Position numbers and translations under genes: made by a program. From positions 1 to 22,873 of the forward strand of contig CAMBHQ010000001.1 in the NCBI GenBank assembly GCA_945867245.1: a stretch of 22,873 nt of DNA, read 5' to 3'. Below the pieces are notes generated by a model, which worked only from the letters and a program-made list of their open reading frames with translations, did not search any database and was not told the origin of the DNA. Below, in pieces: positions 2,388 through 22,873 of the stretch. Origin of the DNA: an uncultured Porphyromonas sp. GTDB lineage: Bacteria > Bacteroidota > Bacteroidia > Bacteroidales > Porphyromonadaceae. Every line of letters starts with the position of its first letter. Position 1 is the stretch's first letter.

Positions 2388-2414
2388 TGGGCAGTGGTCA
2401 CTATGTAGCCACTC

Positions 2415-2506
2415 GGCCACCTAATAGGTCGCCACTGGTCCGCCTAATAGGCGGACGATCGTCGACTCGGTAGGCGGCCAAGTGTCTTCCTATAGAGTAG
2501 TCAGAG
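2415..2506 (+). repeat. Four degenerate 23-bp tandem units, copy A
   Basis: Units start at 2415, 2438, 2461 and 2484, each exactly 23 bp, with the recurring core GTCCGCCTAATAG. The same four-unit block occurs at 11488-11579 in the same orientation, with high identity over about 100 bp including the flanking CCACTCGG. The centre (about 2453-2463) holds a near-palindrome, GGACGATCGTCG. The repeat is direct and has no unique spacers. Confidence 0.75.
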
Positions 2507-2597
2507 GCTAGCGCACACTAGAGCTAGTCTGGCTGGTCTGGCTAGTATCACTAGTGTACCTAGTAGCCCTCGTCTCACTAGAAATACTAGACACCGA

Positions 2598-2639
2598 CCA
2601 CTGCCCACTAGCCACTGATCACTAGCCACTGACCACTGC
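2598..2639 (+). repeat. Heptamer tandem repeat YCACTRN, six units
   Basis: The sequence parses without gaps as six 7-mers: CCACTGC, CCACTAG, CCACTGA, TCACTAG, CCACTGA, CCACTGC. Looser units continue to the left (2591-2597, 2584-2590). The same heptamers occur beside repeat copy B at 11404-11476, partly in reverse orientation. No coding frame is evident. Confidence 0.7.
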
Positions 2640-2644
2640 CCAGC

Positions 2645-2688
2645 AAAAACACAGGGCCGTACCAGTCTAAGTACTGGTACGGCCCTGT
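2645..2688 (-). terminator. Intrinsic terminator of the BACON/S8/PorV-like operon
   Basis: A perfect 16-bp stem (2651-2666 with 2673-2688) and 6-nt loop lie 19 bp beyond the last stop of the minus-strand operon. On that strand the stem is followed by a run of five T (2645-2649), which gives the direction. There is no T-run on the plus-strand side. Confidence 0.85.
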
Positions 2689-2707
2689 TGGCGTCTAGAC
2701 TGGTCGC

Positions 2708-3622: not shown

Positions 3623-3626
3623 CTGT

Positions 3627-6365: not shown

Positions 6366-6386
6366 ACTCTTTGGTTTTACTCGTGC

Positions 6387-7841
6387 TTATTCCTCTAGCG
6401 AGCTTATCTGTATCTCTACCTTAGGCTCGTCGATGCCCTCGTAGCGCACCATAGACACTACTACACTTATCATCTTGCCTAGGTGATAAAATCTATATCC
6501 AGGGCCTATATCCCCCATCGATACGAAGCCCTCTCTCTGCATAAAGGCCACAAACTCGTTGGTCAGATGCAGGGCGCCACCGGCCTCGTAGTACACCTGA
6601 GACGAATCTCTAAGGATAAGGAATACCGAGGTAATAGTGCGCTGAGCGTTGGCTCTAGAGACTCTATATACAGAGGCTAGGAGTGGCGCATCGGCCACAT
6701 CGTACCACAGTATATCTCTATCCTCGTTGGGGTCGTTGATGCTAGAGCGCTCGGCGTTGAGCGTACCGCCGTGGCTCGTCTCCCAGCCAGTGATAAGGCT
6801 ATTGCTACCTGCCGAGAAGTTCATATAGCGGTAAGGGAAGGCTGTCAGCGTAGCCTGTAGGGCGGGCTGTGCAGGACGATAAGTATAGTACACATAGCCA
6901 TCTAGCACTATCTGCGCACGTACAGAGCTCTGAGCATTGTAGTACTCTAGCTCGCTCACCTGCTCGAAGCCATGGCGTAGCAAGAAGGTCCGCTGACCCT
7001 CTAGGTTGATGCGGTTGCGGAAGAAATCGCCGTGGGCGCTATACACCTTAGCAGTCTTGTATCTATTGTTGTAGACGAGGTAGGTGATGAGCGGGAAGGC
7101 AGAGCTCTTGGTCTTATAGCCCCAGTTGTATAGATTGAAGCGCCCATCGGGTATCTGCGAGTTCTCGCTCTTGCGGGCTAACTCGAAGTCGCGCAATGCC
7201 TCCGACGACTGTAGGAACTCCATCGAGGGCAGTACATAGTACATAGCCCCACGCTGCGTTACCTGCACCTCGTGCAGTCCTCGCCCGTCCCTCGTCTTGA
7301 TGTAGATTTTGCCGACGCGGTCCTCACGCTCTGTAGTCTCGTCCACGGTGATGCGTAGCTCGCTCATAGCGTACATAGGCTGTAGATGTATCCAATCCTC
7401 CTCGGTCTCGGCTACCCAGTCGCTGCTATTGCTCTCTACGTCTATCGTCAGGGCTGCGCCCCACTGATTGAGGTCGATAGACTCCTGATTGGTGCTGATG
7501 CTCACCCCGAGCCCGAGCTGTGTGATGCGCAGCTGCTCGCGCGCCTCGCCAGCGATAATCAATATATCTGCCTCTCGGCTCTCTGCACTCGTATTGGCTG
7601 CTAGCTTGATATTGAGCTGATTACCCTCCTGACTGAGGCTCACCCAATCGGCATTCTTGACCGAGGCCCATTGCCCGTGGTTGGTGCTAACGACCAGTGT
7701 CTTGGTCTGCTCGCTACTATCTAGCGTGATAAGCCCACTCGGAGAGACTGTCAGCGTCGTAGGCTCTAGTACAGTATCTCGTCCGCAGGAGGCCACTAGG
7801 CTCGCCAGCAGGAGCAATACTATATATATCTTATGTTTCAT
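6387..7841 (-). CDS. BACON-domain lipoprotein, third of three tandem paralogues
   Basis: The protein has 484 residues. The signal MKHKIYIVLLLLASLVASC has lipobox VASC (Cys19). Two BACON-type beta-sandwich domains follow (about 30-112 and 115-197), recognisable by WASVKNADWVSLSQ, LRITQLG, WVAETEEDWIHLQP and VQVTQRG. The remaining ~285 residues form a C-terminal region shared with the two upstream paralogues: YVLPSMEFL, FELARKSE, FPY, HGGTLN and LTNEFVAFMQREGF. BACON domains are thought to bind carbohydrate or mucin, or to act as spacers on surface proteins. It is fourth-to-last... in operon order it is third, 35 bp after the 7877-9295 gene and 21 bp before the S8 protease. The function of the C-terminal region is not recognised. 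Confidence 0.85.
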   Translation of the reverse strand: MKHKIYIVLLLLASLVASCGRDTVLEPTTLTVSPSGLITLDSSEQTKTLVVSTNHGQWASVKNADWVSLSQEGNQLNIKLAANTSAESREADILIIAGEAREQLRITQLGLGVSISTNQESIDLNQWGAALTIDVESNSSDWVAETEEDWIHLQPMYAMSELRITVDETTEREDRVGKIYIKTRDGRGLHEVQVTQRGAMYYVLPSMEFLQSSEALRDFELARKSENSQIPDGRFNLYNWGYKTKSSAFPLITYLVYNNRYKTAKVYSAHGDFFRNRINLEGQRTFLLRHGFEQVSELEYYNAQSSVRAQIVLDGYVYYTYRPAQPALQATLTAFPYRYMNFSAGSNSLITGWETSHGGTLNAERSSINDPNEDRDILWYDVADAPLLASVYRVSRANAQRTITSVFLILRDSSQVYYEAGGALHLTNEFVAFMQREGFVSMGDIGPGYRFYHLGKMISVVVSMVRYEGIDEPKVEIQISSLEE

Positions 7842-7876
7842 TCGTTCGCTTTGTTTGTAGTTGACTATCTACGAGC

Positions 7877-9295
7877 TTAGACTCTGCGCATATTGAAGCG
7901 TATCACCTGCTTCATCGTACCACCGACGTTCTCATTGCGTATCCACACGTCGAGGAAGATACCCTTGCTAACGTTGCGGTACTTATACATATTGAGGAAG
8001 TCTATCTTGGATATCATCTCGAAGCCCTCCTCGGCGAGCATCTTGCGGAACTCACGCGTCAGATAAGGCGTTCCCTTGTGGAAGAAGTAGGCGTAGCGAT
8101 AGTCATCGAAGGCCTGCACGCTCTGGTCCCCGAGGTAGTAACGACGATACAACGAGGGGCTAGAGGTCTGGAAGTATAGGTCCTTGGCGCTGCTCTTCTC
8201 GGGTACATAGGTACCGCCATTGGCAGCCTCGTAGGCCTGTATCTTGGCCTCATCACCGATCTTGAAGTCTAGGCAACCATAGGGGAACTGAGTGAAGACA
8301 GGCATACCGGCAGGCTGCTCGGGCAGGAAGCGGAAATTGATATACGCTGGTACATCCCCCTTGGCAGCCACTAGTGAGGCCTCCATATTAATATCGGGCT
8401 GTACATAGATGTTGCCGAAGTCAAAGAGGAAGCTCTTGCTCTTGAGGAAGTCTACCACCTTGGTCTTGTACTGCTCCTGAGCTATTATATCGTTGCTCGC
8501 AGGATACAGCTTGGCCTCTACATACTGATTGTTGGCGAAGGTGTACTCTACCCTAGGGAAGAGCGGACTACGTGTGGCATAGCCATAGGTAGACGAGTTG
8601 ATAAAGCCATCGGGCATCTTGACCAAAGTGCTGTGTCTGGCCTTCTCGAAGGCCTGCACCTCGTAGGGGTTGGAGAGGAACTCGCCGAAGGGCAGTATGA
8701 AGGTCTGTATGCCACTCTGTACGATGGTATAGGTACCGAGTACTGTCCCCTGCTCCACTAGACGTACAGTAGCCTGGCGCGGAGCCAATTCGGAGTTCTC
8801 CTCCACGGTAATCTCTGCTCGGCGCTTAGTGTAGTTGGGACTCAGCTGCACCCAGCTCTCGTCGCTCTCTAGCTGCCAGTTCTGCGTATTGGTAGAGACG
8901 TAGAAATACTTCAGCCCCCCGAGGTCATCGACCTCATCTGTAGCGGGGAAGAGCTTAGCCTCTTTGGGCGCACCCGACTGCGATATCATTACGGCCGACA
9001 TCTGACCACCGGCTATCACCTTGACCTCAGCCTGTCTAGTATCGGTGCTGTAGTTGGGCTCTACAGAGACCTTGAGGATAGAGCCCTCGGTCTCTGTCTG
9101 TAGCCACGAGGCCTCGGCTATGGCCTCCCAGGCTTGAGCAGACTTCACGCTCAGCGTGTATTCGTTGCCTGTGGCCTCGGCACTGATAGCAGACTCCGAG
9201 ATGGATATCGGCTCGGTGCTCGGTGCCTCGTATTGGCTGCAGCCCTGTAGCACTAGAGCGAGGCTAAGTGCTAGGGCGAATATATTTAGCTTCAT
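7877..9295 (-). CDS. BACON-domain lipoprotein, second of three tandem paralogues
   Basis: The protein has 472 residues with signal MKLNIFALALSLALVLQGC, lipobox LQGC (Cys19). Two BACON domains are visible (WEAIAEASWLQTE and VMISQSG; WQLESDESWVQLSP and YTIVQSG). The C-terminal region has the family motifs FILPFGEFL, FEKARHS, PDG, SPLFPRVEY, FPYGCLDF, NGGTY and LTREFRKMLAEEGFE. It lies 27 bp downstream of the first paralogue and 35 bp upstream of the third, all in one direction, with no promoter seen between. Like its neighbours it should be lipid-anchored, and may face the outside in a Bacteroidales envelope, but it lacks the usual acidic export signal right after the Cys (SQYEAPSTE follows), so surface exposure is uncertain. 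Confidence 0.85.
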   Translation of the reverse strand: MKLNIFALALSLALVLQGCSQYEAPSTEPISISESAISAEATGNEYTLSVKSAQAWEAIAEASWLQTETEGSILKVSVEPNYSTDTRQAEVKVIAGGQMSAVMISQSGAPKEAKLFPATDEVDDLGGLKYFYVSTNTQNWQLESDESWVQLSPNYTKRRAEITVEENSELAPRQATVRLVEQGTVLGTYTIVQSGIQTFILPFGEFLSNPYEVQAFEKARHSTLVKMPDGFINSSTYGYATRSPLFPRVEYTFANNQYVEAKLYPASNDIIAQEQYKTKVVDFLKSKSFLFDFGNIYVQPDINMEASLVAAKGDVPAYINFRFLPEQPAGMPVFTQFPYGCLDFKIGDEAKIQAYEAANGGTYVPEKSSAKDLYFQTSSPSLYRRYYLGDQSVQAFDDYRYAYFFHKGTPYLTREFRKMLAEEGFEMISKIDFLNMYKYRNVSKGIFLDVWIRNENVGGTMKQVIRFNMRRV

Positions 9296-9322
9296 ATTAT
9301 ATTATCGTTTATGATGGTACTA

Positions 9323-10810
9323 CTATCCGATAGGGATAACGTTGTAGGCGAGGACGCCCTGGCCATTCCATTTACCATAGTAAAACTTCAGGGCCACACG
9401 CTTCTCTCGGTGGATATAGGTGTAGATGCTCCCCTTGTTGTCTATATCATTGAGCTCGTAGCCCTCTCTAGCCAGTAGCGCCTGTAGCTCCTTGGTCATA
9501 AAGTAGAGTTTGGCATAGCTATACAGCCCTGTCTCTAGCTTATCCGTAAAGAAGATCGTCTGTACGAGCTTGCCCTGAGTATTGAAGACATAGCTACGTG
9601 CATAGAACGGAGCGCCCGAGAGGAATATCTCGATAGGCACACCCGACTGGCGCTTGTACACCCCAGACCAGGTCTCGGAGTACTTACCGCCTATCTGCGC
9701 TTCGTGCGCCTGTATCAGGGCCAGTGTACCATCAGCAAAGTTGCGATAGCCTAGGCTAATGCTGTCTAGAGTGCTGTAGCTCTGTGGCTGCTCTACGATG
9801 GGCGTGAATACGACCTCGGCCTGCTCGCCCTTGACCGCCACGACCGCTGTTACCTTGGATGCCGTATTCCTGTAGACCTTGGTATAGCTAGTGAGCGTAG
9901 TAGGCGAATTGAGCTGTACCTCGAAGCCCTGCCCGCGCAGGTAAGTATCGAAGGCTGCATCGCGTACCACCTGAGCATTAGCAGGTAGTAGGATGACACG
10001 GAACATAAAGTTACCCTGCAAATCCTGCATCTCGTACTTCACGAAGGGGAAGAGTCTAGAGCCCGTCTCATACACGTAGAAAGGCTTCTCGGCACTCACC
10101 TGTGTAGCCTCGGCGGGACCCTCTACGAAGACGCTACGACGGGCCATCTCCTTGGTATCAAAGCTAGCACGGTTGCCCCCCCACTCAAAGAAAGGCAGTA
10201 TATAGCTGAGCCCAGCCTGCTGTGTAATCGTTATCGGTGTAGTACCCCCCGAGTGTACGAGCTGTAGTTGTAGCGTGCGAGACTCGTAGGCCCTGTTTTC
10301 GCTGATGCTGAGCAGGAATCTTTTGAGGTGTGGCTCGGCTGTAACCTGTAGCCAATCATTCTCGGGGACCTCCACACGCCAATCCTCCGAGAGGCTGTTG
10401 AGCGTAATCTCGTAGTTGCCCGACCAATAGCCATAGGTATAGGCATCCTCAGACACAGATACTGCTGTAGAGAGACCGGCCTGCTCTACACGTATCTTCT
10501 GACGCTGCTGACCAGAGAAAATGGTTAGTTCTGCTGTACGCTTGGTAGTCTGCGGATTGGCCTGAGCTACTAGACTAAGCGTATTGTCCGATACCTGCGT
10601 AGCACGTAGCCACGAGGCATTGCTGTACACCTCATAGCTCTGATTGGTCTCGAAGCTAATCCTCTGCTCCGAGGCCTCCGCACCAAAAGAAACAAGCTCT
10701 GAGGTACCATCTGCTAAGCGAAAGAAACGCTCCTCCACATGGGAGTCCGAGCAGGAGGCAAACACCCCCAGCGTTAGCAGAAAGAAGAATTTGAGTAATT
10801 CTCTTTTCAT
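9323..10810 (-). CDS. BACON-domain lipoprotein, first gene of the five-gene operon
   Basis: The protein has 495 residues. The signal MKRELLKFFFLLTLGVFASC has lipobox FASC (Cys20). Two BACON domains carry YEVYSNASWLRAT, IRVEQAG, WRVEVPENDWLQV and ITITQQAG. The C-terminal region follows the family plan (YILPFFEW, MARRS, SRLFPFVKY, IGGKY, MTKELQALLAREGYE) but is the most divergent of the three: it replaces FPY..DF with LGYRNFADG and HGGT with IGGKY. The residues just after Cys20 (SDSHVEE) are polar and acidic, which in Bacteroidetes can favour surface export of lipoproteins. It is the first gene after the promoter at 10915-10922 and heads the operon ending at the terminator 2645-2688. Confidence 0.85.
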   Translation of the reverse strand: MKRELLKFFFLLTLGVFASCSDSHVEERFFRLADGTSELVSFGAEASEQRISFETNQSYEVYSNASWLRATQVSDNTLSLVAQANPQTTKRTAELTIFSGQQRQKIRVEQAGLSTAVSVSEDAYTYGYWSGNYEITLNSLSEDWRVEVPENDWLQVTAEPHLKRFLLSISENRAYESRTLQLQLVHSGGTTPITITQQAGLSYILPFFEWGGNRASFDTKEMARRSVFVEGPAEATQVSAEKPFYVYETGSRLFPFVKYEMQDLQGNFMFRVILLPANAQVVRDAAFDTYLRGQGFEVQLNSPTTLTSYTKVYRNTASKVTAVVAVKGEQAEVVFTPIVEQPQSYSTLDSISLGYRNFADGTLALIQAHEAQIGGKYSETWSGVYKRQSGVPIEIFLSGAPFYARSYVFNTQGKLVQTIFFTDKLETGLYSYAKLYFMTKELQALLAREGYELNDIDNKGSIYTYIHREKRVALKFYYGKWNGQGVLAYNVIPIG

Positions 10811-11891: not shown

Positions 11892-14579
11892 ATGGATATA
11901 AAACGACGAGGTTTAACTACCGAAGAGGTCTTGAGAAGTCGAGAGGAGCATGGCGCTAACACATTGACACCTCCTCAGAAGGAATCTATATGGACCAAGT
12001 TTCTAGAGAAGTTTAGCGACCCTATCATCATCATACTCTTGGTGGCTATGGTTCTCTCCTTGGGATTGGCTAGCTACCACTACTTGGGAGATAATGATCT
12101 TTCTCACTTTTGGGAGCCTGTAGGAGTACTCTTAGCAGTTTTGTTGGCCACAGGGGTAGCTTTTTACTTTGAGTTGAAAAGTGAGAAAGAGTTTGAGATC
12201 CTCAATCAGGTCAATGATGACATATACTATAAGGTATATCGTGATGGCCATATCAGTCAAGTATTAAAAGCTGAGCTTGTAGTTGGGGACTTGGTCGTTT
12301 TGGAGACAGGAGAGCAGATTCCCGCTGATGGTACGCTTGTAGAGGCTGTCTCACTACAAGTAGACGAATCCTCGCTCACGGGAGAGCCTCTGGTGAGTAA
12401 AAGTATCAATGAGAGCGAGTTTGATCCCGAAGCGACTTATCCTACTAACTATATCTGTCGTGGTACTACCGTGCTAGATGGGCATTGCCTATTCCGTATT
12501 GATAAGGTCGGGGATAAGACCGAGTATGGTAAGGTATTTGAGGGTGCTCAGATCGACGATAGCGTCAAGACACCTCTGAATAATCAGCTGGACAAATTAG
12601 CGAATACAATTACCTGGGTAAGTTACGGCATCGCTGCGCTAGTGTTAGTAGGGTCAGCTGTTATTTATGCTCTACAGGGAGGGTTTTCATCCTTCGATTG
12701 GACACACGCTTTGGATTTCTTCTTGCCGAAGATTATGATTGCTGTAACGGTCATCGTTGTGGCAGTTCCAGAGGGTCTGCCTATGAGTGTTACGCTCAGC
12801 CTAGCCTATAGTATGCGTAGTATGATGAAGACGAACAACTTGGTTCGTCGTATGCATGCATGCGAGACCATGGGGGCAGCGACTGTTATTTGTACCGATA
12901 AGACCGGCACACTGACTCAGAATAGGATGACAGTTGCCTCTACAGAGTTTGAATCGATGTATGTGTATCAGGGCAGTTCTATGCTCTATGCTGCGATGGC
13001 TATAAACTCGACAGCTCACTTAGATGCCAAAGGAGATGACAAGGTAGAGGTACTCGGAAACCCTACAGAGGGGGCCTTGCTGCTTTGGCTAAGAGGACAA
13101 GGGGTAAGCTACGAACAATTACGCGAGCGAAATCCCCTAGTAGCCCAATTGACGTTCTCTACCGAGCGTAAGTATATGGCTACGGTGGCGGAGTTCGAGG
13201 GACGAAAAATACTATTCGTCAAAGGGGCTCCCGAGATTATCCTAGAGCTATGTCAGACCTCCGAAAAACAGCAAAATCATTATAAGAATCGACTACAGGA
13301 GTATCAAGGCAAAGCATATCGTACTATAGGCTTTGCATATACCTATCTGGATGAAGAAACCCAACCATGGCGGGACGGACGACTAACAGTGTCAGGATTA
13401 ACCTTTATGGGAGTTGTCGGTATTAGCGATCCTATCCGCCCCGAAGTCCCCGAGGCTATCCGATGCTGTATGGAGGCTGGGATTCAGGTGAAGATCGTAA
13501 CAGGTGATACCCCTGGTACAGCCAAGGAAATAGGACGGCAAATTGGCCTGTGGGATGAGACCTGTACAGATCGTAACCTGATAACAGGCACAGAGTTCGC
13601 GGCGATGACGGATGAGGAGCTACTCCCCCGAGTGGCGGATATCCGCATTATGAGTAGAGCTCGCCCAATGGACAAGGAACGTCTAGTACGCCTCTTGCAA
13701 CAGCGGGGCGAAGTCGTGGCTGTAACGGGTGATGGTACAAATGATGCTCCTGCTCTAAACAGAGCCCAAGTGGGTCTGTCTATGGGGGATGGAACGTCTG
13801 TCGCTAAGGAAGCGAGTGATATCACGATATTAGACAATTCGTTTGCCTCGATCACGCAGGCTGTTATGTGGGGACGCTCTTTGTACCTCAATATTCAGCG
13901 TTTTATCCTCTTCCAGATGACTATCAATGTGGCAGCTTGTATCATTGTACTGATCGGAGCATTTTTGGGGACTGAGAGCCCATTGACGGTAACGCAGATG
14001 CTATGGGTGAACCTTATTATGGACACCTTCGCAGCTCTAGCTTTGGCATCTCTACCTCCTAGCCAAAGGGTGATGACAGCTAAGCCTCGTAAGCAAACAG
14101 ATAACATCGTTAGTCCTGCTATGGCCAAGCGTATATTCGGTCTTGGAGGTTTCTTTGTACTGCTGCTCTTTGCTCTGATACAGTATCTCAAGCACACAGA
14201 CCTGACCTCACTAGCTGACTTTAGCTTTGTAGAGATGAGTCACCACCTCTTTGACTTCTCGGAGGGCTCTTTCTCAGGTTATGAGTTATCAGTATTCTTC
14301 AGTCTATTTGTATTCCTTCAGTTTTGGAATATGTTCAATGCTAAGGCCTACAACTCTGGGAGCTCCGCCCTATCTTACTTAGGTCAGTGTAAAAATTTCA
14401 TACTGATTTCGTTGCTTATCTTGCTGGGTCAGATAGCGATTACTAGCTTCGGGGGAGAAATGTTCCGTGTTATTCCCCTAGACTTCAATACTTGGCTTAT
14501 TATCATTGTTAGCACCAGCCTAGTGCTATGGGGTGGAGAACTGATCCGTCTTTTGGGGACAAGAGTAAACACTAAGTAA
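11892..14579 (+). CDS. Calcium-transporting P-type ATPase, PMCA type
   Basis: The protein has 895 residues, normal for a bacterial type IIB Ca2+ ATPase. In order: N-terminal cation-ATPase segment; M1-M2 (about 43-97); actuator domain with TGE at 163-165; M3-M4 with VPEGLP (Glu294, Ca2+ ligand region); phosphorylation site DKTGTLT with Asp336; nucleotide-binding KGAPE; hinge TGDGTNDAP (Asp614, Asp618); then M5 (FQMTINVAA), M6 (WVNLIMDTFAALAL, with ligand Asn and Asp) and four further helices. All catalytic residues are intact. It should export Ca2+ from the cytosol using ATP. It follows a strong promoter and structured leader, and its stop is 9 bp before the vWA-like lipoprotein gene, so it probably shares a transcript with the tubulin/Hsp70 cluster. 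That link may be functional or only positional. Confidence 0.95.
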   Translation: MDIKRRGLTTEEVLRSREEHGANTLTPPQKESIWTKFLEKFSDPIIIILLVAMVLSLGLASYHYLGDNDLSHFWEPVGVLLAVLLATGVAFYFELKSEKEFEILNQVNDDIYYKVYRDGHISQVLKAELVVGDLVVLETGEQIPADGTLVEAVSLQVDESSLTGEPLVSKSINESEFDPEATYPTNYICRGTTVLDGHCLFRIDKVGDKTEYGKVFEGAQIDDSVKTPLNNQLDKLANTITWVSYGIAALVLVGSAVIYALQGGFSSFDWTHALDFFLPKIMIAVTVIVVAVPEGLPMSVTLSLAYSMRSMMKTNNLVRRMHACETMGAATVICTDKTGTLTQNRMTVASTEFESMYVYQGSSMLYAAMAINSTAHLDAKGDDKVEVLGNPTEGALLLWLRGQGVSYEQLRERNPLVAQLTFSTERKYMATVAEFEGRKILFVKGAPEIILELCQTSEKQQNHYKNRLQEYQGKAYRTIGFAYTYLDEETQPWRDGRLTVSGLTFMGVVGISDPIRPEVPEAIRCCMEAGIQVKIVTGDTPGTAKEIGRQIGLWDETCTDRNLITGTEFAAMTDEELLPRVADIRIMSRARPMDKERLVRLLQQRGEVVAVTGDGTNDAPALNRAQVGLSMGDGTSVAKEASDITILDNSFASITQAVMWGRSLYLNIQRFILFQMTINVAACIIVLIGAFLGTESPLTVTQMLWVNLIMDTFAALALASLPPSQRVMTAKPRKQTDNIVSPAMAKRIFGLGGFFVLLLFALIQYLKHTDLTSLADFSFVEMSHHLFDFSEGSFSGYELSVFFSLFVFLQFWNMFNAKAYNSGSSALSYLGQCKNFILISLLILLGQIAITSFGGEMFRVIPLDFNTWLIIIVSTSLVLWGGELIRLLGTRVNTK

Positions 14580-14588
14580 TCAATAACT

Positions 14589-15950
14589 ATGTCTGAGAAA
14601 AAGAAACTACTATTATCCTCTGCTATGGCGTTTGTGCTTAGCGCCTTGGGGGCTTGTTCATCGTCAGCGAGCTTGGGGAGTGAGCATCTAAAAGATTTTC
14701 ACACCCGCTACATGGAGCAGGCGAAAGATGAGCTTAGCCCCAATGCTTTACATCTTTATGTGGACAACTCATATTGTATTGCTCAGGGGCAGCACTCTAG
14801 CTTTTATAAGGAACTAGTGCCTGTTTTGACGAGGCGTTGCCAAGAGTACTATTCAATTAAAGGAGCCAATATAGTGCAGGAAGATCTTACTGCAGAGGAT
14901 GCCTATAAGCGCCTGTTGTCTATCGAGGATGTACCTTATGCTGCTATTAAAGAAGCTGCCGAGCGTATTGTTCGGGGGAATAGTGAGGCTGTGCTGATGA
15001 CTGATTGCGAGTATTACGAGCAGACGATAGCCCGTGGCAATACCAATAATGCCTACTTAGAGGGCGTCTTTGCTACTTGGTTGGAGCGTGGTCATGATAT
15101 CTACATTATTGCGGAGCCTTATACAGAGACTACGGCCAAGGGTAATTTCGCCAAAAAGCGTTTCTATATAGTGTTTACAAGTGATAAACTTGAGCACAAT
15201 ATATATGCAGAGCTGAGTAAAAATGTTAATCTTAATAGGGAGGGGGTAAAGACTCTGCATCTTAGTGCTACCCCCCCGATGATAGTCGAGACACAATCTA
15301 AGCCAGAACCGACTTTAGCGGCACAAGTATCCTCTTATGGTCGCTACGAGGTCCAGGATTGGCAAATAGACTGGTCGAGTATCCAGAGTATCCTGATGCA
15401 GGAGACCGATCTAGACGGGCAGCCTAATGCTAATGGGCAAGCTGTTATTACGGGCCTCGCCTTCAATTCTAGGGAGGGCGACTTGCTTCGTGTAGATGAT
15501 GTGCGGATACGAGTGTTGCCCCTAAATACAGTTTACTCGGATTTTGTCCAGAGTCTTGAACCTGCGAGTGGCGTATCCGCTCCACAAGTGCACACAATAC
15601 AAGCACTCCCAGAGGCTCCGAACTTTATGCTTCTAGACGAAAAACTATGGAAGAGTAAGCGTCAAATAGCACTGTACTTAGATAGACAGAACTTCGACCC
15701 AACAATATTAGATAATAGTGCTGCGGGGGCAAACTTCTTTCGTATCGACATCTTGGCGGATAAGGTTAGCAATATCACCAATAGCGATGATAAAATTCGC
15801 GAGATATTAGTTTTTGATGATATCTCTGGTGGGGGACAGAATGTATCCCTGTATGAGAGTGTTAAGATATGTCTCAATCGCCCCAAAATACAAAATCTAC
15901 TCAAGGAACAAGTCTTATATAGTATCTACGTCTCAACGTTAGCATATTAA
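14589..15950 (+). CDS. Lipoprotein with a vWA-like domain, start of the tubulin/Hsp70 cluster
   Basis: The protein has 453 residues. The signal carries lipobox LGAC with Cys23, so it should be exported and lipid-anchored. Residues about 50-190 look like a Rossmann-type vWA fold: a hydrophobic strand ending LHLYVDNSYC (Asp59, Ser61: a partial DxSxS metal site), a helix, then AVLMTDCEYY (Asp139 as a possible second metal ligand) and DIYIIAEPY. The rest (about 230-453) has no recognised domain. In published comparative genomics, vWA-domain proteins have, as I recall, been noted near some prokaryotic tubulin-like genes, which fits the context. Start chosen at the only ATG with a signal peptide, 9 bp after the ATPase stop and 22 bp before the membrane protein gene. 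The vWA call rests on motif pattern only. Confidence 0.7.
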   Translation: MSEKKKLLLSSAMAFVLSALGACSSSASLGSEHLKDFHTRYMEQAKDELSPNALHLYVDNSYCIAQGQHSSFYKELVPVLTRRCQEYYSIKGANIVQEDLTAEDAYKRLLSIEDVPYAAIKEAAERIVRGNSEAVLMTDCEYYEQTIARGNTNNAYLEGVFATWLERGHDIYIIAEPYTETTAKGNFAKKRFYIVFTSDKLEHNIYAELSKNVNLNREGVKTLHLSATPPMIVETQSKPEPTLAAQVSSYGRYEVQDWQIDWSSIQSILMQETDLDGQPNANGQAVITGLAFNSREGDLLRVDDVRIRVLPLNTVYSDFVQSLEPASGVSAPQVHTIQALPEAPNFMLLDEKLWKSKRQIALYLDRQNFDPTILDNSAAGANFFRIDILADKVSNITNSDDKIREILVFDDISGGGQNVSLYESVKICLNRPKIQNLLKEQVLYSIYVSTLAY

Positions 15951-15972
15951 TAACATCATAAGTATCACTAGT

Positions 15973-16365
15973 ATGAACAATATCGTAACAACAGTACAAC
16001 AACTATCAGCCCTACAGACAACGACATATATATATGCCGTTCTTGTGCTAGTTGTAGCGTTTGCTGTAGCCTTTGGAATAGCTAATGCTATAGCATGGCA
16101 GGGGGGCAATGACCGCTCTTATATTAAGCGTCGCATCACTACAGCAATTATAGGCTTGTTAGCTTCTCTAGGCTACTGGCTCTATTGTATTGCTGTTGTA
16201 GCAGATAATGTACGCAATCAAGGATTTCGTGCACAGTATGAGAATACAGCTGCGTTAGCTTTGGGGCTAATAGTAGTGGGCTATGTAGGTCTATGCTTTC
16301 TTGTCGCCGTGGTAGCGAGAAAGTCTAAGTTTGGATCTATCTTAGGGGCTGAGAAGGAACACTAA
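15973..16365 (+). CDS. Small three-helix integral membrane protein
   Basis: The protein has 130 residues with three clear hydrophobic segments, about 18-42, 53-76 and 92-117, separated by short polar loops (GGNDRSYIKRR and DNVRNQGFRAQYEN) and ending in a short charged tail (ARKSKFGSILGAEKEH). Positive residues cluster in the first loop and the tail, which suggests those face the cytosol. There is no enzymatic motif. It sits between the exported lipoprotein and the cytosolic tubulin-like protein with gaps of 22 and 12 bp, so a membrane anchor or coupling role for the cluster is plausible but only inferred. Not recognised as a named family. Confidence 0.8.
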   Translation: MNNIVTTVQQLSALQTTTYIYAVLVLVVAFAVAFGIANAIAWQGGNDRSYIKRRITTAIIGLLASLGYWLYCIAVVADNVRNQGFRAQYENTAALALGLIVVGYVGLCFLVAVVARKSKFGSILGAEKEH

Positions 16366-16377
16366 CGAGAGCGAACT

Positions 16378-17973
16378 ATGGCTAAAAAACTATTTGTTCT
16401 GGGGATAGGCGGTACGGGGATGCGCTGTATCGAGAGCCTTATTCACCTATGTGCTATGGGGATGTTTGACGACACAGACTTACATCTACTAGCCCTCGAT
16501 ACCGATAAGAATAATGGGAATTTCTCCCGTCTGAAAGCCCTTAAGGATGCTTATCTGGGGGCCAAAGGGGGGACTGCCGAGCAGAGACAAGCCTTGCAGG
16601 ATACCTTTTTCTCAGCCAACCTCAAGTACTACGAGTTTAGTCCCGATTATGAAACAAAGAGTAGCTTCAAGGCGATCTTTGGCTACAGCGATACTCAGTT
16701 CCGAGCTCCTGAGCAGACAGGTCTTGTAGACCTTATGCTGAGCGAGTCTGTTATGAATTTCAATCTACGCCACGGCTATCGAGCCCAAACGCATCTAGGC
16801 TCTATGATGATGTACCACTCTATATTGGAGGAGGCAGAACGCTCGGGCAGTGGTTTGCGTCGCTTCCTCGACGAGTTGGTAAACGACTCTCAGAGTGGCA
16901 ATCCTCGTATCTTCATACTAGGCTCTGTCTTTGGAGGAACGGGAGCTTCTTCGATCCCTATTATTCCACAGGCTCTAGGGGATGCTGTACTCAAGGTTAG
17001 CAATGGGAGTGTAGACCTAATGGGGCGTGCTTATTTTGCATCTACTTTGTTGACGGCTTATTTCAGCTTCCGTAATCCAACAGCCAGCGAACTCAAAGAG
17101 CAATTGGTGATTGCGACATCGGACAAGTTTGCACTCAACTCTCAGGTGGCTATGATGTTCTATTCGAGCGACCCTACAGTCCGATCTACATATCAGCGAT
17201 TCTATATGATGGGGACAGCTGGCCTAGATTGGAAACCTATGGCTCAGGAGGATAATAGCCCAACGATTACGGGGGGAGATAAGCAGGAGAATGACTCGCA
17301 TTATATCGAGCTTTTGGCTGCAATGGCGGCCTGGGACTTTTCTAGACTTAGCGAGGATACACTCCGTGGAGAGAAGTCCGAGGCTAAGCCACGCTATCTC
17401 TATCGCTCTATCGAAGATACTGGTGTTTTGGAGTTTCAGGATTTTGTCGGGGCTGACTATGCCGAAGAGTTTGCTCGTAAGGCAGGTATGTTACTTGTCT
17501 TCTCCATCCTGAGTAATGGCGAAAATTATGATTTCGTAGCAAGTACTCAGGCGGGTAGGCAAAAAGAGTTTGTGGCCTATAAGGATATTGATCCTCAGCA
17601 GGTAGCAGCAGTCAAAAAGTACTTCGACCTCTTTCATGTCTATGTGGATGCTCAGGGGAGCTTCCGTGAGGGGTGGATACGACAGCTGCATCGTTCGGCT
17701 GGCGGTGGGGAGCGTTTCCTATTTGGTCCTACCATATTTTCGCCAAACGATGCGAGGACTTTGTCCAAGATTAAGTTTAACGAAGGTCTGTATCGCAATA
17801 GTGGCGTAGCTGGAGGCAAGGGCTTCTCGACTGGCTGGTTCTCAAACCAGTTCGATGCTTTCAAGGAGGAGGTAGTCAAGGTTCTCAAAAACAACGAACC
17901 TAAGATGACCAACCGAGGCGAGCAACTCTACAAGATGGTGTACGATGCCCTTAAGGCTCTGTATAAATTCTAA
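16378..17973 (+). CDS. Tubulin/FtsZ-superfamily GTPase-like protein (Tubulin_2 type)
   Basis: The protein has 531 residues. The N-terminus MAKKLFVLGIGGTGMRCIESL has the first nucleotide loop GxGGTG (residues 9-14), and LHLLALDTDK follows (about 37-46), as in FtsZ/tubulin. The tubulin signature loop appears as VFGGTGASSIP (about 184-194). These features fit the large prokaryotic Tubulin_2 group, longer than FtsZ (near 400 aa). Residues after about 260 are not conserved with FtsZ, and there is no FtsA/ZipA-binding tail. The protein has no signal or membrane segment and should be cytosolic. It is 12 bp after the membrane protein and 15 bp before the Hsp70-like gene. Whether it polymerises cannot be told from sequence; the T7-loop catalytic Asp was not confidently located. 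Related families have been proposed to act in membrane remodelling. Confidence 0.85.
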   Translation: MAKKLFVLGIGGTGMRCIESLIHLCAMGMFDDTDLHLLALDTDKNNGNFSRLKALKDAYLGAKGGTAEQRQALQDTFFSANLKYYEFSPDYETKSSFKAIFGYSDTQFRAPEQTGLVDLMLSESVMNFNLRHGYRAQTHLGSMMMYHSILEEAERSGSGLRRFLDELVNDSQSGNPRIFILGSVFGGTGASSIPIIPQALGDAVLKVSNGSVDLMGRAYFASTLLTAYFSFRNPTASELKEQLVIATSDKFALNSQVAMMFYSSDPTVRSTYQRFYMMGTAGLDWKPMAQEDNSPTITGGDKQENDSHYIELLAAMAAWDFSRLSEDTLRGEKSEAKPRYLYRSIEDTGVLEFQDFVGADYAEEFARKAGMLLVFSILSNGENYDFVASTQAGRQKEFVAYKDIDPQQVAAVKKYFDLFHVYVDAQGSFREGWIRQLHRSAGGGERFLFGPTIFSPNDARTLSKIKFNEGLYRNSGVAGGKGFSTGWFSNQFDAFKEEVVKVLKNNEPKMTNRGEQLYKMVYDALKALYKF

Positions 17974-17988
17974 ATTAATCAATTCTCT

Positions 17989-20900
17989 ATGGCAAACAAA
18001 GGTCTACTGATAAAAAGCTATACAGATAAGACGGGGTCGCGTGGTGTTTGGAATGAGCTAGACGATACGCACTCGTATATTCAAGGGATACGCACAGCCG
18101 AAGTACAGGATGGGGGGAAAGCTGATATCCTATCTTCGCTCATCTCGGGCTTACCTTCACCTTGGGCTCGGGCTAAACTTTTTGAGTTTGCCCTCAAAAC
18201 GCTCAATACCCCAGACCCTAATATCGCTAAGGCGGGGCTAATGACTGTCTATGATGGTATTCATGGAGAATGGCGTGGTCTAATAGCTTTGATAGCCTTA
18301 TTCGGGGATCGTATTTCCTTTAGTACTCCAGTCTATCTTGATTATCGTGGGAATAACTACGATATAGCGGCCGCAATGGGGCGTATGCTCTTTGACGAGC
18401 GTGATATCTGGAGCAACCAAGACAAGTTAGCTCAGAATAAGGACGAGCTACCATTCCTGCATCTGATATATTACAATAGAGTTCTTATAGGTGGAACTTC
18501 TCCTCTGACAGGTGTCTTTACCGGAGTAAGCTATGATCTGGGGGCTGCTGGAGACATACCTTGGTATCGTAATGGCAAGTTGGAAGACCCTAGTAAGCTC
18601 CTCAATACAGATCAGCTTAATAAGGTCTACATCTTTGTTCGTAATCTGCGTAGCAATATCGTAGACTATGAGCGTAAGATTAACTCTTGTCGTGCTGGAC
18701 GCCCTGTGATCGAGCTAACGGGCTTCAAAGGAATGCTCGAGAGGTGGGAGAACGAGCTTGATAACCTTGGTCAAGGTAGCCTGAGGAAGCAGGGACCTAT
18801 CGCCTCGTATAGTAATCTCTCTAGCCCAATAGCTGATCTTTTTTATAGCAATGTCCCTGTATATCTCAAATCGGACTACAGCTTTACCTACTCTCTTCCA
18901 TCAGGGGAGTATCAGACGATTGACGACATACAGTCCCTGCTGAGTGAGCATCAGGCCGTCCTGGGGTGGATTGATGGAGATACAGCTGGGAAGAACTATC
19001 TCGAGAACGCTCCTGCATACTACCTGCGTGTCGAGGATATAAGTACGGGGGTTAAATACTTTTTCACTGTGCCCTTGTCAGAGCGGGCATTGACCATCTT
19101 CCGTACTAGTATCAGTAATTTGCTGGGCTATGGTACAGAGCAACGTACCAGACTTACGGCTAAGCTGACCGAAGAGGGTAAGCTCGCCGTAACGATGACT
19201 TTGGATATTGACGGTGCTCCTGTCGCTCTAAATACCCGTGAGTACACCATTACTTGGATGGACACTGGGCGTGTAATTCTGTGGCCAAACTTCCAGAGCG
19301 AAAACTGGACACACTACTATCTGTACACCGAGTTTACAGGCAATGCTGAGCAGAGGTTCTATCCAATATTCTCGGATAAAAATGGCTATATCTGCGAGGA
19401 GCATCAAGCAGATAAGCTATATGTCTATCGTGGTGGTGATAGTGGGCATCCCGACGTAAAGCCAGAGCGCCTAGTTACCTATCCTGGTCTTGACAAGGTG
19501 CAGAGCGACAAGCCCGTGTATGATATACTAGGCATGGAGCGCCCTGTAGGGGTACTAGCGGCTACTACTCGTTTACAGGGGGTAGATGTCTCGGCAGGTT
19601 ATCTAATTATTCGTACTGACAAGGTGGGGCTAGAGGATTTAGGAGAGAATCTACACCGTCAAGAGGCCATAGTGGGTATCGACTTTGGTAGCAATAATAC
19701 ATGTATTTATTATTCGACGAACCAAGGAGACCCTCAACCAATCCAGTTCGATAATACTCGCCTAGTGCTCGTCGGGCAGGAAAATCATAACCAACGAGCC
19801 TTGGCAGACCTCAATGAGTTGCTCTTCTTTTCCAATACTCCTGCTCGGAATGGACAGTTTAAGAGCTGGCTACACGAGCACGAGGAGACCTATAATGCGA
19901 ACCAACAGCATCGCGAAATAGCAGGTGGTGTCCCCGTTAATAGAAATAACATATATGTGCGGGAGATGGATGCCTTCAAGATAATAACCCAGGCGGGTAT
20001 CTTGCACTACAATATGAAGTGGTTGGACGATGATAAGGGTCTGATGAAGAAGAAAGCCTTCCTGAAGAGCTTATGGTTGCAGGCCTGTGCTTACCTCTTC
20101 CGAGTACAGGCTAAGCCAGTCAAGGTTTTCTGGAGCTATCCAGGCTCTATGATGCAGTCTGATGTCAATAATCTGGAGAACCTCTTTGAGGAATTGTGCA
20201 AGAAGCTACGCCCAATCAAATTGGCTACCCCTAGACTAAGTGAAACGCTGATAACAGAGGCTGAGGCTGTATGTCGCTATGCCTTGTCTCAGGACTTCGG
20301 GTTGACGGATCGCAATTTGATACTCGGTATCGATGTGGGGGGGAGTACGAGTGATATTCTACTACTGGCCAAAGACCCACAGAACGGATATCGCAATACC
20401 CTGCTACACGAGAGTTCGGTGCGTATAGCCGCAGGTGTTTTGGCGGATGCGATTAAAAAGAGCGACGCCTTCCGTCAGGCTGTCTATAGCTTTCACGAGG
20501 GAAACGCCAGGAGTGTGTACCTAGAGAATATCAAGGATATTCTGAGCATCCCCGAGAAGGCTCCATTCTTCCTAACAGGTATCTTTGACCAGTTGGACGA
20601 GGAGGGCTTCGACGCATTCTATACCAGTTTGTCAGAGCGTAATAAACGCATATTTGTAATCCCAGCCTATATAACTGGGCTATTGCTCTACTACTCGGGT
20701 ATTCTTATAGGCAAGACTCTACACAAGTACAACCTAACAGACATAAAGGAAGTATATGTTCTCGCTTTTGGTAAAGGCGGGCGTATATTCCACTGGCTCA
20801 CCAATACCCCAGGAAGTCGTTTGACAAAGGAATACTATCGCGATTGTCTCAATGCTGGTGTTGGTCTAGTACTGGAGGATTGTAATATCCAAGTAGACTT

Positions 20901-21387
20901 CCGTGATGAGGAGAAGATACGCCTCGATAATAAAGCGGAGGTTGCTAAGGGAATGTGTACGGATATGAGCAGTCTGTGCACGCGGAATAGGGACGATATG
21001 CACGACATCTGTGGCGAGGAAAACGTGCGTTATATGCAGACAGATGGCTCTCCTCTATCTTTCAGAACAGACTCCGAGTTATATGCTGACTATTTCCAAG
21101 AGTTGAGTCGATTCTCCTTTAACGAGACTCCCAACTTTTCGGCCTTTATGGAGATATTCTACGACTTTGTTTCTGAACGCACAGATATATGTCGTGATGC
21201 CCGCTCTTTACTCGAGGGCGAACTAAGAGATTTGCCTGGTCGTATTGGCAACCTGCTAGCCAATGACCCCGAGTATCGCAAGGCTCAGCGTAATGCAGTA
21301 AATGGTAGGTTTGCTTACCATCAGCCGATCCTTATAGCCGAGGGTTTGGCTTTCCTGCGCACAATTATAGAGAAGTTGCTCAACTAA
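17989..21387 (+). CDS. Large protein with N-terminal unknown region and C-terminal Hsp70/actin-fold ATPase
   Basis: The protein has 1132 residues. The C-terminal half is an Hsp70-like (ASKHA) ATPase: phosphate-1 motif IVGIDFGSNNT (Asp565), an Hsp70-like VFWSYPGS strand (about 713-720), phosphate-2 motif LGIDVGGSTSD (Asp782) and adenosine motif VLAFGKGGR (Gly928). The spacing 565-782-928 is close to that in DnaK. No DnaK substrate-binding domain follows. The first ~560 residues are not recognised; they include SGLPSPWARAKLFE (53-66) and a beta-rich segment (about 280-550). It is cytosolic by sequence. It lies 15 bp after the tubulin-like gene and is very likely co-expressed. A nucleotide-driven partner or regulator of the tubulin-like protein is the natural inference. 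Confidence 0.85.
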   Translation: MANKGLLIKSYTDKTGSRGVWNELDDTHSYIQGIRTAEVQDGGKADILSSLISGLPSPWARAKLFEFALKTLNTPDPNIAKAGLMTVYDGIHGEWRGLIALIALFGDRISFSTPVYLDYRGNNYDIAAAMGRMLFDERDIWSNQDKLAQNKDELPFLHLIYYNRVLIGGTSPLTGVFTGVSYDLGAAGDIPWYRNGKLEDPSKLLNTDQLNKVYIFVRNLRSNIVDYERKINSCRAGRPVIELTGFKGMLERWENELDNLGQGSLRKQGPIASYSNLSSPIADLFYSNVPVYLKSDYSFTYSLPSGEYQTIDDIQSLLSEHQAVLGWIDGDTAGKNYLENAPAYYLRVEDISTGVKYFFTVPLSERALTIFRTSISNLLGYGTEQRTRLTAKLTEEGKLAVTMTLDIDGAPVALNTREYTITWMDTGRVILWPNFQSENWTHYYLYTEFTGNAEQRFYPIFSDKNGYICEEHQADKLYVYRGGDSGHPDVKPERLVTYPGLDKVQSDKPVYDILGMERPVGVLAATTRLQGVDVSAGYLIIRTDKVGLEDLGENLHRQEAIVGIDFGSNNTCIYYSTNQGDPQPIQFDNTRLVLVGQENHNQRALADLNELLFFSNTPARNGQFKSWLHEHEETYNANQQHREIAGGVPVNRNNIYVREMDAFKIITQAGILHYNMKWLDDDKGLMKKKAFLKSLWLQACAYLFRVQAKPVKVFWSYPGSMMQSDVNNLENLFEELCKKLRPIKLATPRLSETLITEAEAVCRYALSQDFGLTDRNLILGIDVGGSTSDILLLAKDPQNGYRNTLLHESSVRIAAGVLADAIKKSDAFRQAVYSFHEGNARSVYLENIKDILSIPEKAPFFLTGIFDQLDEEGFDAFYTSLSERNKRIFVIPAYITGLLLYYSGILIGKTLHKYNLTDIKEVYVLAFGKGGRIFHWLTNTPGSRLTKEYYRDCLNAGVGLVLEDCNIQVDFRDEEKIRLDNKAEVAKGMCTDMSSLCTRNRDDMHDICGEENVRYMQTDGSPLSFRTDSELYADYFQELSRFSFNETPNFSAFMEIFYDFVSERTDICRDARSLLEGELRDLPGRIGNLLANDPEYRKAQRNAVNGRFAYHQPILIAEGLAFLRTIIEKLLN

Positions 21388-21400
21388 GGAGGATAAAGTG

Positions 21401-21432
21401 TGGCTGTGTCGTAAGTAATTACGATGCAGCCA
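21401..21432 (+). other. Hairpin with GUAA tetraloop between the two Hsp70-like genes
   Basis: In RNA, 21401-21414 pairs with 21419-21432 over 14 positions (two of them G-U) and closes on GUAA, a GNRA tetraloop. It lies 13 bp past the stop of the 1132-aa gene in a 115-bp gap, the widest within the cluster. No T-run follows, so it is more likely an mRNA stability or processing element than an intrinsic terminator. No -7 box was found between it and the next ATG. Confidence 0.55.
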
Positions 21433-21502
21433 TACGCACCACCTTCTACGTGTTTGACTCAGATTGCTAACGAATAGCCTACGATATTACTACTAAGCAA
21501 AT

Positions 21503-22873
21503 ATGATTATAAATGCTCTCATACTATATGTACGGAGTAATTCTATTGTCCCCATTGCCTTGTTAAACAATAAAGAGGTTGAGCTAAATGGAAAGCACCT
21601 TAATCCGATATGGCTATACTTCTACGAAAATAAGGACAATGTTCGTGTAGACTTTGGTTTGGAGTATCGCCAGCACTACGAGCAGAATAGACCGCTCTAT
21701 CACGGAGATATCCTCTCCAAGCTCTGGGACGAAGATGCTACCTATGATTATGGCTTTACCCGTCGTCAAATGCGTTATATCTTTGAGGACTCGGGTATTT
21801 GGCAAGGCTTGTCAGAGGCTTATCGTGCTTTAGGTACAGGCTTACGAGGAGATGCACGCATACCCTTAGCTCTATGTTTCCATCCCGAGGTAAAGGCTGT
21901 GCATCAGCAAGAGTTTGTGCGCCTAATACGAGAGGGAATATACTTCGACCTCCTTGCTTATGGTATGCCCTTGGAGAGTTGTGCTTGGCAGGCTTGGCTT
22001 AAAGAGCAAACAGGCACATTGCAGGGAGAACAAGTTTTGGCTATTCAGACTCTATCACCTGATATGTACATCTCTGCTTTCTCGGCGGAACAACCTTTAA
22101 CGTTGGCCAAAGGGCAGACTTTTATTGGGCAGGGGAGAGACCTTCGTAGGCGTGCCCTCGTGAGTCGCATTGTGTATCAAGTTAATCGGGTAAATCGCTT
22201 CCTCAAGAGCGAAGCTGAGATACAGAGGGAAATTGAGCGTCATATACATCTGCACGCAGAGGAATGGATAGCTCGTCTAGACGCTACAAGTGCTCGGGGG
22301 ATACCGATTAGATACAATAACATCAGTTTTGCCTGTGCCCTCAATAGTGTGGAGTCTGCTACAATTAGGCACAGTGAAGTTGAGGCAGATATTAGTCGCC
22401 AAATAGAGGCTCTCGTAGATGGAATTATTACGGAGGCCAACAGTCTATTGACAGCAGGGCGTCGCTATACACAGCTACTCCTTATTGGGGATGCTTGTCA
22501 AAGTCAAGTCTTTCGTAAGCTTCTGATGGATAAGCTGGGGTTAGGGGAGGAGCGTGTTCGTGCCTTCTCAGAGAGGGATTTAGCTCTAGTGTTGAGGGCT
22601 TACTTCGAGATTAAGCCCGAAGCCTTGCTCTCGCTCGAGCAGAGCTGTGCTGAATGTGGAGCAGAGCAGTTGTTGCGCCTTACCGAAGACAAGGAAGATC
22701 GCCTAGCCGGAATTGAGGAGGGGAAAAAACGCCTCACAGAGGAGGAGCGTAAGCGACTACTTAGAGAGTTTCAGACGGCCTCTGATCGGGGGAACGAACT
22801 TCTAGAACGTCGTGAGTTTGCTCAGGCACTTGAGTTTTTTGAGATAGCTAGAACCAAACAACCTGATAACCAA
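21503..22873 (+). CDS. Degenerate Hsp70-like protein with C-terminal TPR; runs off the window
   Basis: An open frame of 457 codons runs from ATG 21503 to the edge without a stop. The plan follows an Hsp70/actin-type ATPase with eroded motifs. The N-terminal strand (ILYVRSNSIVPIAL) lacks the phosphate-1 Asp-x-Gly. VLAIQTLSPDMYISAF (178-193) sits where phosphate-2 should be but lacks the Gly-rich loop. LLLIGDACQSQVFRKLL (about 325-341) matches the adenosine-motif strand with the second Gly changed to Asp. A charged linker follows, then GNELLERREFAQALEFFEIA (about 431-450), the start of a TPR. It is probably a non-catalytic scaffold or adaptor. Start chosen as the first ATG in frame after the 115-bp gap; it is AT-rich just upstream. 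The Hsp70 relation is inference from motif order, and the TPR call is moderate. Confidence 0.65.
   Translation, partial: MIINALILYVRSNSIVPIALLNNKEVELNGKHLNPIWLYFYENKDNVRVDFGLEYRQHYEQNRPLYHGDILSKLWDEDATYDYGFTRRQMRYIFEDSGIWQGLSEAYRALGTGLRGDARIPLALCFHPEVKAVHQQEFVRLIREGIYFDLLAYGMPLESCAWQAWLKEQTGTLQGEQVLAIQTLSPDMYISAFSAEQPLTLAKGQTFIGQGRDLRRRALVSRIVYQVNRVNRFLKSEAEIQREIERHIHLHAEEWIARLDATSARGIPIRYNNISFACALNSVESATIRHSEVEADISRQIEALVDGIITEANSLLTAGRRYTQLLLIGDACQSQVFRKLLMDKLGLGEERVRAFSERDLALVLRAYFEIKPEALLSLEQSCAECGAEQLLRLTEDKEDRLAGIEEGKKRLTEEERKRLLREFQTASDRGNELLERREFAQALEFFEIARTKQPDNQ

Follow-up and report, generated by a model that had tools for sequence, protein, structure and literature searches.

A stretch of 22,873 nucleotides from an uncultured Porphyromonas sp. 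(GenBank assembly GCA_945867245.1, contig CAMBHQ010000001.1), hereafter the window, was found to end in a compact operon of five plus-strand open reading frames (ORFs; 14589-22873), in which a tubulin-like protein stands directly ahead of a giant ATPase with a modelled actin/Hsp70-superfamily fold, in a gene order conserved across Bacteroidota. The window makes up the whole of contig C1 (22873 b), which belongs to a 1.37-Mb draft genome at 54.6% completeness. A Ca2+-ATPase gene lies 9 bp ahead of the operon, and its distal genes, among them TerD-like and OmpA-domain genes, appear to continue on another contig, C3. Our preferred reading, held tentatively and at slightly less than even confidence, is that the unit from the Ca2+-ATPase to the OmpA gene is a horizontally acquired trans-envelope nucleoside triphosphatase (NTPase) switch, linked to Ca2+ and serving in envelope damage or conflict.

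The familiar bacterial pairing of a tubulin with an actin relative is that of FtsZ and FtsA in cell division. The partner sets of FtsZ/FtsA, TubZ and ParM differ from that of the present operon, as an initial annotation of the window, made from the sequence alone, had maintained. An accessory pairing of this type in a mobile operon reaching from the cytosol to the wall, if true, would show that such switches have been reused in stress or conflict.

Architecture and conservation of the operon core

The initial annotation had recognised the five consecutive plus-strand genes, with gaps of 12-22 bp among the first four, and had proposed that a tubulin-fold and an actin-fold switch are combined in them with envelope-linked partners. 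The ORF positions agree with this description, the spacers between ORFs 1-4 being 22, 12 and 15 bp, and a longer one of 115 bp precedes the fifth ORF; the unit is larger than described there, and both the Ca2+-ATPase gene and the truncation of the fifth gene at 22873 had been overlooked. The proposal had been staked beforehand on co-conservation of the genes outside this genome, and this is what was found: in 29 of 32 named loci, all recovered by searches with the tubulin-like protein, the giant ATPase gene directly follows the tubulin gene, with gaps of -4 to 148 bp. Both the predicted folds and this conserved order support the union of the two switches in a single operon.

Among 198 genomes of the order, 13 have the tubulin; 9 of these, and no others, have the ATPase. 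With the window's genome removed, 8 genomes have both, 4 the tubulin only, none the ATPase only and 185 neither (Fisher p 1e-11). Each of these four tubulin-only genomes has, beside the tubulin gene, one for a diverged giant ATPase (1106-1192 aa). At the level of the phylum the tubulin is found in 7 of 296 genomes, and the six other than the window's share the order lipoprotein-family gene, small ORF, tubulin, giant ATPase. It is similarly sparse closer to the window, with 2 of 25 other genomes of the genus (G219 and G217) and 3 of 38 genomes of the family carrying it. Because the order is conserved across the phylum yet few genomes carry the tubulin, the core is best regarded as an old, sparse, accessory module; a chance gene neighbourhood is ruled out by the same conservation of order across Bacteroidota.

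The tubulin-like protein and the giant ATPase

The predicted structure of the Tubulin_2/FtsZ-like protein P0004 (16378-17973, plus strand, 531 aa) has the tubulin/FtsZ GTPase-domain fold, the C-terminal third of the model having hardly been probed. Both nucleotide-site loops reported initially are near-invariant in the 21 members aligned. The GxGGTG loop corresponds to residues 9-14, with G9 in 20/21 members and residues 10-16, the T1-type loop IGGTGMR (16405-16425, plus strand), in 21/21; GGTGASS corresponds to residues 186-192 and falls within the T4-type loop GSVFGGTGASS (16921-16953, plus strand), in which V184 and T188 occur in 20/21 (one member reads X at the latter) and all other positions in 21/21. 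Against the Tubulin_2 profile (PF13809) P0004 scores 20.1 bits, below the Pfam cut-off of 27; 18 of the 21 family members match it at E 0.1 (best 2.8e-7), and it is precomputed on 34 of 120 homologues among the matches listed. Sequence searches of the PDB with A1, A2 and A3 recovered nothing significant, the best match to a chaperone having an E of 0.91.

The giant ATPase P0005 (17989-21387, plus strand, 1132 aa) is modelled as an N-terminal region of ~550 residues, the fold of which was hardly probed, followed by an actin/Hsp70-superfamily domain (~557-999) and a mostly helical C-terminus. As modelled, the central domain is an actin/Hsp70-superfamily nucleotide-binding fold with phosphate and adenosine motifs. 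In the alignment of 18 family members, the key residues G563, D565, F566, G567, S568 and N570 of the phosphate-1 motif GIDFGSNNTC (19675-19704, plus strand) are invariant, as are residues G780-D789 of the phosphate-2 motif GIDVGGSTSD (20326-20355, plus strand), V783 excepted, and the adenosine-type motif GKGGR (20770-20784, plus strand). The initial annotation had read these as a complete Hsp70-type nucleotide site, and had seen in P0005 and the fifth protein an Hsp70 pair. The motifs are upheld, whereas the specific assignment is not: FtsA, MamK, DnaK and MreB tie as best matches to the modelled fold, and fold and motifs are therefore not Hsp70-specific. Past residue 999 the model consists of helices with two 4-residue strands, a strand-rich region precedes the ATPase domain, the C-terminal substrate-binding sandwich of Hsp70 is absent from the model and none of the 18 members matches the Pfam HSP70 profile (PF00012) at E 0.1. 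On account of the missing sandwich and profile match we do not class P0005 as an Hsp70; the fifth protein, for its part, matches DnaK only below threshold (hhalign 0.4-0.7%; collinear over ~residues 12-365 at a low cut), and the proposed pair is not supported.

Distant and near giant ATPases match each other by hhalign over both halves (97.2% and 98.8%). The profile of the distant giants, HSPLd, was built from genes picked by position, which makes its own matches circular but not the hhalign link to the near family. SrfB was considered as an identity for the giant ATPase and dropped, being matched at E 0.07-0.21 only, in distant members. An unusually long version, of 1412 aa as against a median of 1128 aa, is encoded at L030:8178-12416.

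Envelope-associated components and the fifth protein

The first gene of the operon encodes a lipoprotein with a divergent vWA-like domain (P0002, 14589-15950, plus strand, 453 aa). Its lipobox Cys23 is kept in 16/16 family members, as are D59, S61, T138, D139 and E141. A motif resembling the metal ion-dependent adhesion site (MIDAS), with the pattern DxSxC in 15/16 members, reads DNSYC in the window (14763-14777, plus strand), and the second motif, TDCE in the window (15000-15011, plus strand), is TDGE in the other 15. Pfam VWA is matched by 0/16 members; a profile comparison with a vWA alignment by hhalign gave 69.7% (E 4.2e-5, 47 columns), as against 0.2-1.2% for four unrelated controls. One relative, at L028:8077-9585, reads DYSGS at the MIDAS-like site, which is the canonical DxSxS. 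The second gene encodes a small membrane protein (P0003, 15973-16365, plus strand, 130 aa) with three hydrophobic segments by hydropathy (22-40, 55-73 and 96-114), predicted to be helices; its family, gene cluster C3 (as distinct from the contig of that name), is found in 19 of the 32 named loci. Of the earlier claims, the vWA-like lipoprotein is supported by its motifs and profile match, the three hydrophobic segments are confirmed, and the envelope linkage of the operon is likewise supported.

The fifth gene, P0006 (21503-22873, plus strand), is cut by the contig end, leaving an N-terminal part of 457 aa that has TPR repeats and possibly a degenerate Hsp70-like domain. Of its initial description as a degenerate Hsp70-like protein with a TPR, the latter part is favoured by TPR matches in relatives, whereas the former has only the sub-threshold match given above. 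Its family (gene cluster C4) is encoded after the giant ATPase in 18 of the named loci, and measures 685-896 aa in the 16 with an unsplit ORF.

The probable distal end of the operon and its interchangeable modules

Contig C3 of the same genome (G000:C3) starts with a 329-aa open frame (L215:1-990) that corresponds to the C-terminus of the fifth-protein family (E 1.3e-33), and from this split gene we infer that the operon continues from C1 to C3. Right after this frame lies a TerD-like gene (L215:1074-1670; match to the family alignment, which mixes TerD-like and true TerD rows, at C3:1074-1664, E 3.9e-79), followed by a gene for an OmpA-domain membrane protein (L215:1677-2594, 305 aa, one hydrophobic segment, OmpA E 3.2e-13). 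The TerD-like family matches true TerD by hhalign at 92% (E 6e-7), while Pfam TerD recovered nothing over the window's genome, where the diverged copy on C3 was found only by the family alignment. A TerD-like gene is to be expected after the fifth gene because the window's tubulin sits within a 20-row clade (support 100/100) that holds all 13 TerD-kind loci. The G+C content (GC) past the OmpA gene on C3 is 0.54, as against 0.47-0.48 for the stretch from the Ca2+-ATPase to OmpA.

The TerD kind of operon, to which the window belongs, combines one or more TerD-like genes with a membrane protein bearing a wall-binding domain, a slot filled by CW_7 in relatives (seven tested) and by OmpA in the window's genome. 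L206, a locus from another class of the phylum, adds to the core three TerD genes (E 4e-51 to 1e-70), a gene for an OmpA protein and one for a Ca2+-ATPase, the last truncated at the edge of the stretch examined. TerB-like genes occur in L012 (E 9e-5, just under the Pfam cut-off), L014 and L015, and also near the operon of L032. Other loci carry different modules after the same core. In L029 these are DO-GTPase2 (E 5.2e-10) and GAP1-N2 (E 2.9e-6), and L030, L031 and L034 have genes of the same clusters, the Pfam run having been made on L029 only. No DO-GTPase or GAP1-N2 was found among the 13 window proteins (Pfam) or in L215:1-19900 (local profiles), and they are present in 4 of the 32 named loci. 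In more distant variants (L052, L053:13593-15958, L056, L057, L207 and L208), MotA-like and MotB/ZorB-like genes, recognised with local profiles, follow the giant ATPase directly or after one gene; the ZorB-like protein of L053 matches PADLOC ZorB1 (E 2.7e-12), and the MotA-like protein of this locus matches Pfam MotA_ExbB at E 0.19 only. L061 has a PP2C phosphatase gene. Two further observations concern such variants: the MotA-like protein at L057:13704-15449 carries a LysM domain (E 3.4e-7), another wall-binding domain, and a ParA/MinD-like ATPase that seems to be fused with a DO-GTPase1-like domain is encoded at L055:10487-12202, near a diverged tubulin/giant-ATPase pair.

A recurrent link to a calcium pump

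The gene ahead of the operon (11892-14579, plus strand) encodes a PMCA-type Ca2+-translocating P-type ATPase (NCBIfam TIGR01517, 656 bits as against a cut-off of 507). A linked Ca2+ pump is present in 12 of 13 resolvable TerD-kind loci, downstream in nine (L003, L007, L009, L011, L012, L014, L020, L024 and L032) and upstream in three (L008, L010 and the window), L015 being the unlinked one; the kind of L010 was inferred from its sister L008. Eight loci (L004, L005, L006, L013, L016, L017, L018 and L019) were left out of this count on account of contig ends, L016 among them having also given a TerD-type match. No pump was found on the examined flanks of 11 other loci and L033. In a tree of 38 pumps, which excludes the fragmentary pumps of L024 and L010 as well as second copies of any one gene, the 10 linked rows fall on at least 3 branches and require at least 5 label changes, 4 of them forced by well-supported branches, which suggests that a pump became linked to the operon repeatedly.

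Within the genus, two PMCA pumps, some cut by contig ends, are present in 3/3 genomes with the operon and in 0/23 without it (p 0.0004; 0.003 leaving out the window's genome); of the 23, eight carry a single close pump, a ninth carries a distant one (33% identity) and none carries two. The recurrent pump offers a concrete physiological handle on the system. TerD of Klebsiella is reported to bind Ca2+ (PMC8123226).

Distribution and probable mobility

The core is present in the cultured species Phocaeicola sartorii, Prevotella jejuni, Xylanibacter rarus and Porphyromonas uenonis, and the giant ATPase in Bacteroides fragilis, which makes the system accessible to experiment; where source names are given among 240 listed homologues, they read 'hypothetical' or 'uncharacterized'. 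Several features indicate that the operon is probably mobile. The P. uenonis tubulin groups with that of Prevotella jejuni and not with the window's, with modest support (84/78). In the window's genome there is a GC step at both ends of the operon: the operon and the Ca2+-ATPase gene have a GC of 0.467 and 0.469, as against 0.532 for window positions 1-10810. In L006, L009, L018 and L216 the lipoprotein gene is preceded, at a distance of 0.2-0.6 kb, by a tyrosine recombinase/integrase gene (identified by Pfam in L009). None of 50,697 phage records matched the tubulin-like protein, and a plasmid search with it returned six weak matches (23-29% identity), none reaching 80% coverage.

L216 is a 60-kb IMG/VR contig classed as viral, in which the operon core begins 261 bp after an integrase gene sharing 56-58% identity with its counterparts in L006, L009 and L018; the contig is perhaps an integrated element. 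L013 and L017 come from metagenome-assembled genomes labelled Eubacteriales/Clostridia (Firmicutes), and their tubulins are nested among those of Bacteroidales; these contigs are likely mis-binned.

Relationship to described systems

The closest precedents are themselves predictions, namely the FtsZl1-vWA-OmpA operons (Makarova and Koonin 2010) and the GTPase-tubulin-HSP70 conflict systems (Kaur et al. 2020). The former, as set out in PMC2875224, are predicted operons of FtsZl1 (Tubulin_2), a diverged tubulin, with vWA and OmpA proteins and often membrane proteins, proposed to act in membrane remodelling; a Bacteroides caccae sequence appears in Figure 1 of that paper. Tubulin_2-like, vWA-like and OmpA genes likewise occur together in the window's genome, the last through the presumed join to C3. 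The window type differs in lacking a recognisable form of the P-loop GTPase of FtsZl1 operons; conversely, Hsp70/DnaK occur 0 times in the main text of PMC2875224, and neither TerD nor a Ca2+ pump is named in its available part.

The second precedent, the GAP1-N2 DO-GTPase-centric conflict systems, has tubulin or HSP70 in the company of vWA, TPR and membrane proteins, and PMC7159879 mentions a class combining GTPases, tubulin homologues and an HSP70 chaperone. There, tubulin and HSP70 are non-overlapping themes, mainly of actinobacteria and firmicutes, whereas here a tubulin and a giant actin-fold ATPase are neighbours in Bacteroidota; neither DO-GTPase nor GAP1 is part of the window type, the overlap in these being confined to L029, L030, L031 and L034. 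With ter operons (PMC8123226), the window's genome has in common a TerD-like protein, though one too diverged for Pfam TerD, and the calcium theme, and some relatives share TerB-like genes; it differs in adding a tubulin, a giant ATPase, a vWA-like lipoprotein and a Ca2+-ATPase. The resemblance to Zorya (ZorAB) is confined to the MotA-like and MotB/ZorB-like genes of distant variants and does not extend to the window type. No description of the Bacteroidota tubulin/giant-ATPase combination was found in the open-access literature searched, supplements being outside its scope.

Functional interpretation

The trans-envelope switch that we tentatively prefer builds on the gene set and order with its presumed join, the modelled folds, the lipoprotein and membrane signals, the wall-anchor domain, the TerD-like protein, the pump and their recurrence; sensing, assembly, thresholding and control by Ca2+ are its conjectural part. 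The vWA-like lipoprotein would be the sensor, outside the inner membrane, of a ligand or of damage to the envelope, and the three-helix protein would relay the signal inward while keeping both NTPases, the tubulin-like protein and the giant ATPase, at that membrane, where their GTP- and ATP-dependent assembly would set a threshold. The OmpA- or CW_7-bearing protein may tie the complex to peptidoglycan, the TerD-like protein may read cytosolic Ca2+ (or another ligand) entering through the damage, and the pump would restore cytosolic Ca2+. The cell would thereby survive, or mount a conflict response against, an attack on its envelope by a phage, a colicin-like toxin or an oxidant. A wider generalisation, which we consider rather doubtful, is that the operons represent a new class of calcium-linked mobile trans-envelope machines. 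Co-assembly of a tubulin-fold GTPase with an actin-fold ATPase at the inner membrane would lie at their centre, peptidoglycan would serve as the anchor and a vWA-like lipoprotein would steer the assembly, and the output module would be exchangeable (TerD with a Ca2+ pump, DO-GTPase/GAP1 or a ZorAB-like motor).

Several observations weigh against the trans-envelope switch. The core is not uniform: L025, L026 and L033 have no adjacent giant ATPase, G031 and G032 carry the tubulin and the ATPase on separate contigs, and seven distant giants show phosphate-2 by pattern but neither phosphate-1 nor GKGGR. Metal binding by the lipoprotein is uncertain because DxSxC replaces DxSxS and the window has TDCE. 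C1 and C3 share no overlapping sequence at their ends, the TerD-like protein of the window's genome goes without a Pfam TerD match, and PADLOC returned no match at E 1 for six window proteins. The GC step is weaker in P. uenonis (core 0.482, downstream 0.523). As for the pump, none is linked to the TerD-kind operon of Prevotella jejuni (L015), the linked rows cluster in the pump tree, and losses could explain part of the pattern. The linked pump of the window's genus also shares a clade with presumed resident pumps, one of them from the same genome, and because of this close kinship it may be a local recruit, although it differs in GC (0.469 as against 0.552).

Three other explanations have to be set beside the switch. 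In one, which seems unlikely, the operon encodes a membrane-remodelling cytoskeleton, in which the giant ATPase would organise tubulin-like filaments along the inner membrane, and these would shape the membrane or make vesicles. The predicted tubulin fold, together with the vWA-like and OmpA partners, fits the FtsZl1 proposal of PMC2875224, and FtsA, MamK and MreB rank at the top of the fold comparison for the giant ATPase, albeit tied with DnaK; however, the patchy and apparently mobile distribution better suits an accessory function, TerD and the Ca2+ pump are left unexplained, and the T6-H7 elements of FtsZl1 itself are described there as not identifiable. TerD and the pump are instead central to a Ter-like stress resistance, in which TerD-like and TerB-like proteins and the pump would protect against oxidants, tellurite or colicins, with the tubulin-like and actin-fold proteins as non-polymerising, chaperone-like scaffolds. 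The TerD-like gene in the window's own genome and the TerB-like genes of relatives point this way, but TerD or TerD-like profiles were matched in only one (L206) of 26 other loci scanned, so that in the remaining 25 the tubulin-like gene goes without such a match, and we regard this explanation as quite improbable.

The DO-GTPase2 and GAP1-N2 genes after the same core in four loci, and the ZorB-like protein of the distant variant L053, speak for a GTPase-centric conflict system dedicated to defence against phages, in which NTPase assembly would trigger an effector. An AbiL-like pair ~5 kb upstream of the L009 copy of the operon can be read in the same direction (L009:846-3029; AbiLi E 1.6e-94, RloB E 3.1e-44; located before the integrase gene). 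On the other side, no toxic effector was recognised in the window-type operon, PADLOC having been applied outside the operon to four neighbouring genes, from two loci, only; we hold such a dedicated role to be somewhat improbable.

Other features of the window

Promoter and terminator scans gave results no better than chance. On the minus strand, window positions 2708-10810 encode a PorV-like/porin-like protein (304 aa), an S8 subtilase with a type IX secretion tail and three BACON-domain proteins. The third-codon-position GC of these minus-strand genes is 0.61-0.70, as against 0.34-0.52 in the adjoining low-GC operon.

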